Shown one piece after another: positions 33,250 to 62,547 of a DNA stretch of 64,000 bases. Both the position numbers and the translations under genes were made by a program. The notes beneath the pieces are model-generated. The model ran no database searches, was not told where the DNA came from, and saw only the letters and a list, made by a program, of their open reading frames with translations. Location: NCBI GenBank assembly GCA_019930625.1, contig CP082844.1:930001-994000 (forward strand), given 5' to 3'. Numbering within the stretch: the stretch's first letter is position 1; each line of letters opens with the position of its first letter. Origin of the DNA: Nocardia asteroides (lineage in GTDB: Bacteria; Actinomycetota; Actinomycetes; Mycobacteriales; Mycobacteriaceae).

Positions 33250-36200
33250 TCACGACCGCCCCGGGTTCCGTGTCATTTCCCAGCCGGGGGGATCCAGCAG
33301 TTCGGACAATCGCGGCCCGATCTGCGCCAGCGCTTCCGGCGAAGTCATCTGGTCGTGCGGGACGCCGACGGGATGATCGTCGACCCGGCCCTCGACGTAG
33401 GGTTGCCAGCCCGCGGCCGCGGTGTCGTGACCGGCCGCGCTGAAGTAGTCCAATCGTCCACGGAAAACGTCCGGGCGGTGCTCGGCGATCAACTCGGCCG
33501 AGCGCACCGCGCTGCGGTAGATCCGGCGGACCCGGTCGGGAGTGAGCACCGCCATGTCCGGGGGGATGGTGGCGTGCAGCGCGGCGAGAGCGTCCTCGCT
33601 CAGATCGTGGATGTCCCCGTCGCCGGGCAGCAGGGCGTCCGCGCCGATACCGAGTTCGGCCAGCGCCTCGCGGATCGCCGCCCGGAAATCCGTGACGTCG
33701 ATGTCCGGGTGACTGTCGAGCATGGCGAGCAGGCCGATGTCCTCACCCGCGGCCTGCAACGCGGTCGCCACCGCGTGCGCCAGCACACCGCCGAGCGACC
33801 AGCCGAGCAGCCGGTAAGGCCCGTGCGGCTGCACCGCGCGGATCTCGGCCACGTAGCGGTGCGCCATCTCGGTCAACGACCGCGGCAGGTAGCCCTCTTC
33901 GGTCAACGCGGGCGACTGCAGGCCGAAGATCGGGGTGCTCGCGGGCACATAGCGCGCGAGGCCTGCGTAGCACCAGGACAATCCATACATCGGATGCAGG
34001 CAGAACAGCGGCCCCGCGGCGGCGACGTCGTGCGGCACCATGGTCCGGATCGGCAGCAGCACACCGAGCGCCGCGTTCGAGTCCTGGTCGTAGTCGTGGT
34101 CGTCGGCCAGCGCGGCGAGGATCCGGGCCGCCAGCGCCGCCGGGGTGGGATCGGTGAAGAACCACTGCACCCGCACCTGGGCGCCGGTGAGCGTGCGCAA
34201 CCTGCTCACCGCGCGGGTGGCGACCAGCGAGTTGCCACCCAGGTCGAAGAAGTCGTCGTCCATGCCGACCCGTTGTCCGGCACCGAGCTCGAGCACCTCG
34301 TCGAACACCTCCAGCACGGTCCGCTCCAACGGCGTGCCCGGCGCGCGGTACGGACGGGCGGCCGGTCGCGGTGCCGGCAGCGCCTTGCGGTCGAGTTTGC
34401 CGCTGGCGTTGAGCGGCAGTTCGGTGAGCGCGACAACAGCCGAGGGCACCATGTAGGACGGCAGCGCGGCGCGGGCGTGCAGCAGCAGGGCAGCCTCGTC
34501 GACGGTCACTCCCGGCGCGGCGGCCACATAGGCGACCAGCCGGTCCCCGGTGGCGCTGCGCACCACAGAGACCGCCGCTTGCCGGATCTTGGCATGGCGC
34601 GCGAGCACGGCCTCGATCTCTCCGAGTTCCACCCGCTGGCCGCGCAGCTTGACCTGGAAGTCACTGCGGCCCAGGTATTCCAGCGCTCCGTTGCGCCAGC
34701 GCACGATGTCACCGGTGCGGTAGAGCCGGGCGCCGCCGGCATGGGCGACGAATCGCTCGGCGGTGAGGGCCGCGGCGCCGAGATAGCCGCGGGCCAACTG
34801 CACTCCGGCGACGTACAGTTCGCCCGCCGCGCCCGGCGGCACCGGGCGCAGCTGCCGGTCGAGCACGTGCACGCGGGTGTTGGCCACCGGTACGCCGATC
34901 GGTACCGCCGCCGCCGCGGTGTCGCGCACCGGGTGATCGGTGACCACGGTGGCCTCGGCGGGTCCGTACCAGTTGACCAGCGCGGCGCCGGGTGCGGTGG
35001 CGGCGAAGGCCGCCGCGGTCTCCCCGGACAACGCTTCCCCCGCGGCGAACACCCGCCGCAGCGACGGGTACCGCGCGGTGGGGTCGGCGACCGGGTCGAG
35101 GAACGCCTCCAGCATCGACGGCACGAAATGCACCGTGGTGATGGCGTTGTCGACGATGAGTCGAGCCAGGTAGGCCGGATCGCGATGTCCGTCGGGCGCG
35201 GCGATCACGATCGACGCACCGGTTTGCAGCGGCCACAACAGCTCCCAGGTGGAGATGTCGAAGGTGATCGGCGTCTTGTGCAGCACCACGTCACCGCCGT
35301 CGTGCGGGTAGGCCGACTGCGCCCAGCGGAACTGGTTGACCATCTGCCGGTGCGTGATCATCACGCCTTTGGGGCGACCGGTCGAGCCCGAGGTGTAGAC
35401 GACGTAGGCGACGGTGTCCGGATAAACGTGATCCTGGGGCCGAAGGCCCTGGTAGGGAGGCAGGTACAGCGTATCGACCGCGACCACCGGGACACCGGTC
35501 GCGGTGTCGAAGGCGTCCGCGGTGGTGGTCAGGACGCAGATCGGCGCGGCGCTGTCGAGGACGTACTCGCTGCGCTCGGCCGGATGGTCCGGATCGATCG
35601 GGACATAGCCGCCACCGGCGCGCAACACCGCGTAGATCGCGACGACGAGGTCGATGCCGCGCCGCATGGCCACGGCGACCAGCGTCTCCGGGCCGACGCC
35701 CCACCCCATCAGCTCGACGGCCAGGGACCGGACGCGCGAGTCGAGTTCGGCGTAGCTGAGCGTGGTGTCGCCGAAGCGCACCGCCGGCGCGTCCGGCGTG
35801 CGCGCCACTTGCGCGTCGAACAGCGACAGCAGCGTCGCCTCGTCGAGCAGTTCCGGCACGTCGGTGGCGTTGCGCGCGGCCAGCTCGGCGCGCTCGTCGT
35901 CCAGCAGCGCGTCGATGTCGCCGACGCGCGCCTGCGGGGTGGTCATGAAGCGACCGATCAGCATCGAGAGCCGCTGCGCGAGCGCCGTCGCAGCCGGTTC
36001 TCCGGTCAGGTCGCGCAGGTACTTCACCGAGACCCGCAGCTGACTGTCCAGCACCACCATCACCGTGAACGGGTAATGGGTGCCGTTGGCCGCGCCGACG
36101 CCGATGACGTTCATTCCGTCGATGGCGCCGGCCTGGTCCAGGCCCTCCCGGTCCACCGGGAACGACTCGAACACGACGAGCGAGTCGAACAGGCCCTCCA

Positions 36201-62200: not shown

Positions 62201-62547
62201 ACCATGTGCTCGACGCGATCGGCCGGATAGTTCGGGTCGACCGGAACGAACCCCGCACCGGTCTTGGCCACCGCCCACACCGCCACCACCGACTCGATCG
62301 ACCGCGGCACACCCACCGCGACCAAATCCTCCGGACCCACCCCACGATCGATCAGCAGACGCGCCAACCGCGTGGACCGTTCATCCAGCTCCGCATAGGT
62401 CAGGTGTCCGCGTGAGTCGACCGCGTCGGCGAAGACAACCGCGGTGCCGGTCGGATTCGCCTCGACCGCGGTTGCCATCAGTTGCGGGAGGGTGGTGACC
62501 CTGGGTCGCCGGGTGCGCGTGGGCCGCACCCGCGCGGGCCGCGTCAC
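50293..62547 (-). CDS. Four-module NRPS (A-PCP-[C-A-PCP]x3-TE)
   Basis: This 4084-residue synthetase is paralogous to the five-module enzyme. Landmarks: A1 core ~182, PCP1 ~565, C2 HHIAADG ~752, A2 ~1240, PCP2 ~1625, C3 HHIAADA ~1822, A3 ~2317, PCP3 ~2705, C4 HHISSDG ~2896, A4 ~3382, PCP4 ~3775, TE GWSLGG ~3908. No E domain is present. Specificity residues: A1 DALFVGGIM, A2 DVWDFILVS, A3 DLWHLILVS (same as the paralogue), A4 DFWNVGMVH, which matches the threonine code DFWNIGMVH. It begins with A, not C, and has the same basic tail as the paralogue. GTG 62547 ([10 protein letters not shown] next) is chosen by alignment with that start; an in-frame GTG at 62580 would add 11 residues. Product: a Thr-ending tetrapeptide, or a longer chain if fed from upstream. 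Confidence 0.92.
54394..54793. repeat. Duplicated NRPS block A, copy 2
   Basis: Partner of 41836-42235, offset 12,558 bp. It covers the PCP3 serine region and the C-terminal part of A3 in the four-module NRPS. Identity ends sharply on both sides. Confidence 0.85.
56156..56523. repeat. Duplicated NRPS block B, copy 2
   Basis: Partner of 43613-43980, offset 12,543 bp, at the equivalent place (end of C3) in the four-module NRPS. Confidence 0.85.
59035..59237. repeat. Duplicated NRPS block C, copy 2
   Basis: Partner of 46492-46694, offset 12,543 bp, in A2 of the four-module NRPS. Confidence 0.8.
60477..60696. repeat. Duplicated NRPS block D, copy 2
   Basis: Partner of 47937-48156, offset 12,540 bp, in C2 of the four-module NRPS. 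Confidence 0.8.

Follow-up and report, generated by a model that had tools for sequence, protein, structure and literature searches.

One starter and two finishers: a probable bifurcated nonribosomal peptide synthetase line in Nocardia asteroides

The nrpA-nrpB-nrpC locus

The window analysed here is a 64,000-nucleotide stretch of Nocardia asteroides DNA, C1:930001-994000 of a 7.4-Mb genome. It carries two unbroken minus-strand reading frames, nrpC and nrpB, for nonribosomal peptide synthetases (NRPSs), and the 3′ part of a third, co-directional NRPS gene, nrpA, which crosses the window edge. We think it likely that these genes encode a bifurcated assembly line, in which one starter, nrpA, would be followed by either of two finishers, nrpB and nrpC. 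A first-pass annotation of the window had described the locus as two complete NRPSs; both are real, but nrpA had been overlooked. The genes and their domains (A, adenylation; T, carrier; C, condensation; E, epimerization; TE, thioesterase; A*, half-adenylation stub) are as follows.

C1:992749-1000089 of the genome (= L009:2749-10089), minus strand: nrpA, whole gene, 2446 amino acids, A-T-C-A-T-C-A*, no TE
62749..64000 of the window, minus strand: nrpA, 3′ part, crossing the window edge
63619..64000, minus strand: nrpA C3, C-terminal part; the full gene has an intact HHxxxDG; would act, we propose, on T1 of either nrpB or nrpC
62752..63612, minus strand: nrpA A*, C-terminal half-adenylation stub, stopping short of A5; SGSTG P-loop and FDxS both absent
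50293..62547, minus strand: nrpB, four-module TE-ended NRPS, A-T-C-A-T-C-A-T-C-A-T-TE
62452..62544, minus strand: nrpB Arg-rich acceptor tail, a conserved N-terminal tail
60739..62484, minus strand: nrpB module 1 (A-T), code DALFVGGIM
57559..60693, minus strand: nrpB module 2 (C-A-T), code DVWDFILVS
54316..57516, minus strand: nrpB module 3 (C-A-T), code DLWHLILVS
51106..54276, minus strand: nrpB module 4 (C-A-T), code DFWNVGMVH, Thr-type
50296..51045, minus strand: nrpB thioesterase, GWSLG
33250..50010, minus strand: nrpC, five-module TE-ended NRPS with a pseudo-epimerase, 5586 amino acids, A-T-C-A-T-C-A-T-C-A-T-Elike-C-A-T-TE
49915..50007, minus strand: nrpC Arg-rich acceptor tail, same as the nrpB tail (31/31)
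48199..49947, minus strand: nrpC module 1 (A-T), code DALFVGGIM
45010..48153, minus strand: nrpC module 2 (C-A-T), code DVWDFILVS
41761..44967, minus strand: nrpC module 3 (C-A-T), code DLWHLILVS
38593..41721, minus strand: nrpC module 4 (C-A-T), code DALFVGGIM; carrier LGGDSI
37261..38577, minus strand: nrpC E0, E-like domain; SSLVVDD for HHxxxDG, VRLPADGR for EGHGRE
34120..37206, minus strand: nrpC module 5 (C-A-T), code DIWHFAWVV
33292..34017, minus strand: nrpC thioesterase, GWSLG

The nrpB frame is also open up to a GTG at 62580 (4095 amino acids from there). The GTG at 62547 fits better as the start, because the conserved tail begins there. A simple scan between nrpB and nrpC found no promoter or terminator.

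The two window NRPSs had been described as both starting with an A domain and a carrier, both ending in a TE of their own, and sharing the codes of modules 1–3. They were said to part afterwards, nrpB into a Thr-type A4 and TE, nrpC into an A4 like that of module 1, an E-like domain, a fifth module, and TE. The domain calls, the open frames, and a second reading of the codes bear out each of these points. In nrpA, the A1 code is DVLLVAGIL and the A2 code is the Thr-type DFWNVGMVH; the code positions, and the assignment of DFWNVGMVH to Thr, are those that we take to be the usual ones. The meaning of the codes of this locus was not found in the open-licence PMC literature. LGGxS is present in all 11 carrier domains of the three proteins, and GWSLG in both TEs. 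In sum, nrpA has no release domain of its own, the paralogous TE-ended genes downstream of it differ in content, and neither of them has a C domain at its start.

The A* stub of nrpA

A* retains the first part of the adenylation fold. In the customary naming of adenylation motifs (P-loop, FDxS, A5, and so on), it is without the SGSTG P-loop, FDxS, and everything from A5 onward, and so does not have what marks a functional adenylation domain, namely the A3 P-loop and motifs A5–A10. Fresh frameshift or damage in the last A domain of nrpA is ruled out, since the stub is kept across the genus and beyond. At E ≤ 1e-20, a 145-residue query specific to A* hits 139 of the 148 genus genomes, this one included, and ordinary A domains of this genome score no more than 35.4 bits among the matches listed. 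Over 249 genomes of the order, the same query reaches at least 50 bits only in five genus genomes (again including this one) and in G182, from another genus of the same family. A profile of A* searched against the same 249 genomes did not discriminate, because it also matches ordinary A domains. The stub is present in several further genera of the family, its sequence being kept in Nocardia, Rhodococcus, Prescottella, Aldersonia, Antrihabitans, and Millisia.

The best named match of A*, among the best 80 loci, is that of N. abscessus NBRC 100374, at 91%. In an alignment that took in 35 of the 39 stubs located (one further stub extends over two loci), the A* of the window has 33–86% identity to 34 others, from Nocardia as well as other genera, and the columns E186-S187-R188, W232-V233, and H235 are near-invariant. 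The ratio of nonsynonymous to synonymous substitution rates (dN/dS) is 0.11–0.31 for A* in eight species pairs, some of which share species. For comparison, it is 0.08–0.13 for A1, 0.09–0.33 for C2, and 0.09–0.28 for C3 (seven pairs, one of them saturated). AlphaFold2 modelling of the N. abscessus C3-A* part, with 46 sequences, gave a mean pLDDT of 90.2 and a pTM of 0.62. A* is thus predicted with confidence to fold, its placement against C3 being less sure. In structure, the whole C3-A* model best matches the C-A didomains of Txo2 and Txo1. In C3 itself, columns H133, H134, D138, and G139 show either no change or conservation of at least 90% among 46 aligned C-A* proteins of the 57 located. 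A single clade of the C domains that precede A* was looked for, and the tree shows none; one A*-labelled row in it, G087_6813439, is an edge-cut, mislabelled frame.

What follows A*

A standard T-to-C docking or COM pair has a donor ending in T or E and an acceptor starting with C. The A* boundary does not fit this arrangement, for the donor ends in C-A* and the acceptor starts with A-T. A module divided between C and A would have this appearance: a C domain with an active motif but no carrier after it, and next a protein that starts A-T without a C.

Loci were sampled from 12 genus relatives, from 20 stretches of other genera, and from 80 named loci, these being the best 80 of at least 512 confirmed stretches; 19 of the 80 have no A*-ended frame. 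Junctions were counted when the two frames lay on the same strand, −200 to 1500 bases apart, and the upstream frame ended at most 150 residues past its last domain. An A-starting frame follows the A*-ended frame in 84 of the 85 distinct junctions (94 of 95 before ten copies of junctions fetched twice were removed), and the sole exception is a 5′-partial frame in L129. The SGSTGxPKG P-loop occurs in none of the 96 distinct A*-ended frames, and a C domain directly precedes A* in 93 of them. Since the loci were chosen for A*, the count speaks to what comes after A* and not to the rarity of A-T starts in other settings. A* genes with no adjacent acceptor in the stretch are those of L042, L088, and L100. 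In L088 (G222) and L100 (G172), both from other genera, the neighbouring NRPS gene lies on the opposite strand. Broken or gapped NRPS frames were seen at the same type of locus in L066–L068 (G071) and at G087:C1:6813439, and may be assembly errors or decay; they were kept as separate pieces.

It could be argued that A* is an inert remnant of a gene that was split within an A domain, or that it only stabilises C3, and that it has no part in subunit contact. This reading, which is compatible with a bifurcated line, agrees with a shortened A domain whose motifs are lost. We hold it to be unlikely, given a sequence conserved in six genera, the dN/dS values, the confidently predicted fold, and the constancy of an A-starting next gene, although none of these shows contact.

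Starter and acceptor classes

The N-termini are of two sorts. Proteins of the nrpA type begin with METARRSARGSRRRRSGSPLFGQLL..., the starter sort, and proteins after A* have the Arg-rich acceptor sort. The classes were set by patterns written after inspection of the tails, and the survey took A-starts with at least two domains. Tails were assessed at 81 of the 84 distinct A*-to-A junctions, where 76 are acceptor, 4 starter, and 1 other. After a TE, distinct junctions give 13 acceptor tails, that of nrpC among them, and 10 starter tails. Where no NRPS frame lies just upstream in the stretch, 46 A-start frames divide into 32 starter, 2 acceptor, and 12 other or short, several of the last being cut at a contig or stretch edge.

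The same division appears in a tree of the A1 cores, from which the tails were excluded. With duplicates and short rows dropped and nine "other" rows unlabelled, it has 2 label changes on 139 tips, where 100 shuffles of the labels gave 32–46. Of the 49 starters, 48 fall into a single, acceptor-free clade. The A1 of nrpA is in this clade. That of nrpB is outside it, and so is that of nrpC, which bears an acceptor tail despite its position after the TE of nrpB. The identical tails of nrpB and nrpC stand beside A1 domains that are 82–83% identical, and in the twin pair of G104, the tail is 84% and A1 47% identical. The tail, alike in both finishers, may be the element through which contact with nrpA would be made. 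A protein of the nrpC type directly follows an A* protein in G037 and G142. Counted by eye, 9 of 13 genus stretches (this one and 12 relatives) hold more acceptor-type frames than starters; there is no such excess in G037, in G142, in G071 with its broken frames, or in G144, at a contig end, and the G087 stretch has one acceptor cut at its fetched edge. Taken together, the tails, the A1 domains, and the junctions favour an nrpA common to nrpB and nrpC.

A second gene of the nrpA type, nrpA2, is found as an orphan at C1:5082601-5089776 (L042:6601-13776), minus strand, with an A1 code of DVLLMIGVI, a Thr-type A2, and a shorter A*. Its C3-A* part is 92% identical to that of nrpA over query residues 1–705. 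It could be a second starter for nrpB and nrpC.

A proposed bifurcated line with a split module

We propose that nrpA would load two residues, X and then a Thr-type residue, and that its last C domain, with the catalytic motif intact, would work across the subunit boundary. A1-T1 of nrpB or nrpC would bring the next residue on a carrier, and C3, followed by the dead stub A*, would join the dipeptide to it, the two subunits making up a split module, C-A*/A-T. Contact is probably made through the Arg-rich acceptor tail and A*. Since the tail is the same, nrpB and nrpC would both be able to take the chain, and each would complete it with its own modules and its own TE. The predicted products are X-Thr-a-b-c-Thr, a hexapeptide, via nrpB and X-Thr-a-b-c-a-d, a heptapeptide, via nrpC. 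Two related peptides from one locus had already been suggested, and this is probably right. The suggested lengths, a 4-mer and a 5-mer, are less likely than a 6-mer and a 7-mer, since the A-T starts are of the acceptor type and nrpA adds two residues.

Several observations weigh against this proposal. Three or four frames with starter tails follow A*, as in the tandem nrpA genes of G087 and G071, and 2 of the 46 A-start frames with no upstream NRPS frame bear an acceptor tail, so that tail class and position do not always match. In this genome, nrpC comes after a TE and not after A*. Among 10 other within-genome pairs, two (G134 9447/31575 and G087 21834/34382) have a tail that is less conserved than A1, and in one or two further pairs, tail and A1 are about equally conserved. 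The orphan nrpA2 has no downstream NRPS in the 6.6 kb fetched. The choice of loci for their A* means that ordinary T-to-C junctions were hardly sampled as a control. Finally, acceptor A-T proteins such as nrpB and nrpC could start chains themselves.

If they do, nrpB and nrpC might be two independent lines, each starting at its own A-T and releasing a 4-mer and a 5-mer, with nrpA in neither. An A-T start is the textbook initiation module, and both twins start in this way and end in a TE. The acceptor-class tails of both, and their A1 domains outside the starter clade of nrpA, make this rather improbable, as do an nrpA that has no TE and no other NRPS partner alongside and the nrpC-type proteins directly after A* in two relatives. 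That nrpA, which adjoins nrpB, feeds nrpB only, giving one hexapeptide while nrpC starts itself or is fed by the orphan nrpA2 at 5.08 Mb, is very doubtful in view of the identical tails of nrpB and nrpC and of the one starter only per 60 kb fetched in each of five relatives with all three genes, of which G061 has a second nrpA-type frame among the matches listed genome-wide.

The shared starter thus remains our preferred reading. If one starter serves two finishers, peptides will be predicted wrongly wherever a single line is assumed for each TE-ended gene or for the full set, and a metabolite search should be aimed at pairs of 6-mers and 7-mers. More tentatively, and with somewhat less than even confidence, we suggest that A* is a dedicated pseudo-adenylation docking domain and part of a wiring common to Nocardia, Rhodococcus, and their relatives. 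Modules would be split between C and A, one C-A* donor would serve several A-T acceptors, orphan starters would provide several donors for an acceptor set, and combinatorial families of peptides would arise from single loci. A dead half-domain conserved at split modules would add a new type of subunit junction, through which the basis of partner choice by NRPSs could be tested directly.

History of the twin genes

The first-pass annotation had also suggested duplication of a whole line followed by change of its final part, and the comparison of the twins supports this, with the change around C4/A4. DNA identity between nrpB and nrpC is 82.0% over 9.7 kb and extends into C4, where protein identity is 64%. 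The order nrpA, TE-ended nrpB, five-module nrpC is also found in G061, G111, G040, G043, and G104, although nrpB of G104 has more modules. C4 of nrpC has 83–88% identity to its five orthologues. C4 of nrpB has 72–91% to five of its six orthologues and 59% to that of the divergent G104. Likewise, A1 of nrpC is 83–92% identical to its orthologues and 83% to its twin, and C2 of nrpC is 75–92% identical to orthologues and 73% to the twin. A recent duplication is rejected because the pair stands in five other species and because C4, together with A1 and C2 of nrpC, groups by orthologue.

A1 of nrpB alone would not show this. It is 95% identical to that of G061, 57–80% to the other orthologues (73–80% for G111, G043, G040, and G087), and 83% to its twin, and, being nearer its twin than most of its orthologues, it does not sit easily with a duplication that is not recent. 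A2, C3, and A3 are as close or closer to the twin than to many orthologues (for A2, 86% within the genome and 80–84% to distant orthologues), which suggests that they have been homogenised between the twins. An exchange with nrpA is also apparent. In nrpB module 4, window positions 51113-53890 match the C2-A2-T2 region of nrpA (C1:995045-997834) at 82.7% DNA identity, and the amino acid identity between the two Thr-type A domains, that of nrpA and that of nrpB, is 95% in this genome. Identity to the G061 orthologue is 80% for nrpA and 86% for nrpB. Since the Thr-type A of nrpA is nearer nrpB of G061 (83%) than nrpA of G061, the most likely event is a recent gene conversion in which the domain of nrpB was copied into nrpA.

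The E-like domain of nrpC

E domains are marked by the motifs HHxxxDG and EGHGRE. With SSLVVDD and VRLPADGR in their places, E0 does not have the motifs of an active epimerization domain. On these grounds, an active epimerase in nrpC was considered and rejected, and the E-like domain is probably not one. HHxxxDG is absent from all seven nrpC orthologues, this one included, and from 12 of 15 E-like rows; it is kept in three E domains, those of G087, G134, and G052. Relatives of E0 with at least 48% identity occur in all ten genus genomes searched, and among the matches listed from 141 genomes of other genera, the top one has 148.1 bits and 36% identity. In G134 (G134:8653415), G052 (G052:2113583), and G071 (G071:477839), the E0 domain sits after a TE.

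E0 is nearest in sequence to E domains (PvdL, tyrocidine synthase 2), and we conclude that it is derived from them. The C domain of nrpC module 5 groups with C domains that follow E domains (a 13-tip clade of 115, support 100), although this clade also includes one C domain that follows a T. The LGGDSI carrier of module 4 is presumably of the type found before E domains, and LGGDSI with a post-E type of C domain would be the marks of a D-residue. No P450 was found among 28 neighbouring frames scanned with Pfam.

Neighbouring genes

Behind nrpC lie three genes that match, by description, members of the GCF 6 locus family considered below.

32022-33161, minus strand: esterase PF00756, directly behind nrpC
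30882-31907, plus strand: epimerase-like
30021-30833, plus strand: enoyl-CoA hydratase

A second PF00756 esterase, at 21607-22611, has 69% DNA identity over 0.8 kb to the first. Genes for an ABC-2 type exporter (a permease and a DrrA-like ATPase) lie near the cluster, at 24083-27110 on the minus strand, and possibly export the peptides. Condensation domains at window positions 1-298, and at C1:906686-930298 of the genome, belong to a separate NRPS region. Further condensation domains, at C1:2760325-2803503, are in a single NRPS frame of 14,723 amino acids.

Comparison with known systems

The locus resembles a conserved NRPS locus family of Nocardia, GCF 6, described by Mannle et al. 2020 (PMC7413640) as having 7 to 13 modules and, as invariant neighbours, a nitropropane dioxygenase, a metallopeptidase, an esterase, an epimerase, and an "enoyl-CoA dehydratase". 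Here there are 11 modules, with a nitronate monooxygenase (NMO), an M23 peptidase, an esterase, an epimerase-like gene, and an enoyl-CoA hydratase by Pfam, matched by description and not by sequence. The locus family is widely conserved in Nocardia. In the accessible text of that paper, the product is not named, and GCF 6 is treated as one assembly line of varying size, with no mention of two TEs, an A* stub, the tails, or E0.

E0 can be compared with the X-domain of glycopeptide synthetases (PMC8949500), a C-family domain that, as described there, has likewise lost HHxxxDG. E0 differs in being closest to E domains by sequence. The same source describes dead A domains complemented in trans by stand-alone A-T proteins in the albicidin, ramoplanin, and enduracidin lines. 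The likeness is a dead A domain in the line, with the residue coming from an A-T encoded elsewhere. In our case, a long, TE-ended synthetase opens with the A-T, and A* is a half-domain that closes its protein and has no T behind it. The PKS-NRPSs of the romidepsin family (PMC13324335) are reported to combine one front half with variable back halves joined by subunit docking. There, the docking modality is another, a betaHD domain being named, and the variation is between clusters rather than between two acceptors in one locus.

For the A* stub or the C-A*/A-T junction, no description was found in the accessible open-licence PMC literature, including PMC9113145, PMC5550956, and PMC11433410, subscription papers being outside that scope. 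The closest precedent for a bifurcated NRPS line that arose through gene duplication and recombination is the wollamide/desotamide line, WolI/WolH with WolG1 or WolG2 (PMC9205934). Like our proposal, it has common upstream subunits, a terminal NRPS gene present in duplicate, A domains that recombined within the genome, and two products. It differs in the docking domains described at the WolH/WolG boundary, where here the boundary is C-A*/A-T. The Nocardia twins differ in module number and occur as a pair in several species. Bifurcation therefore has a precedent, and the new element is the A*/A-T junction, for which we have proposed a mechanism.

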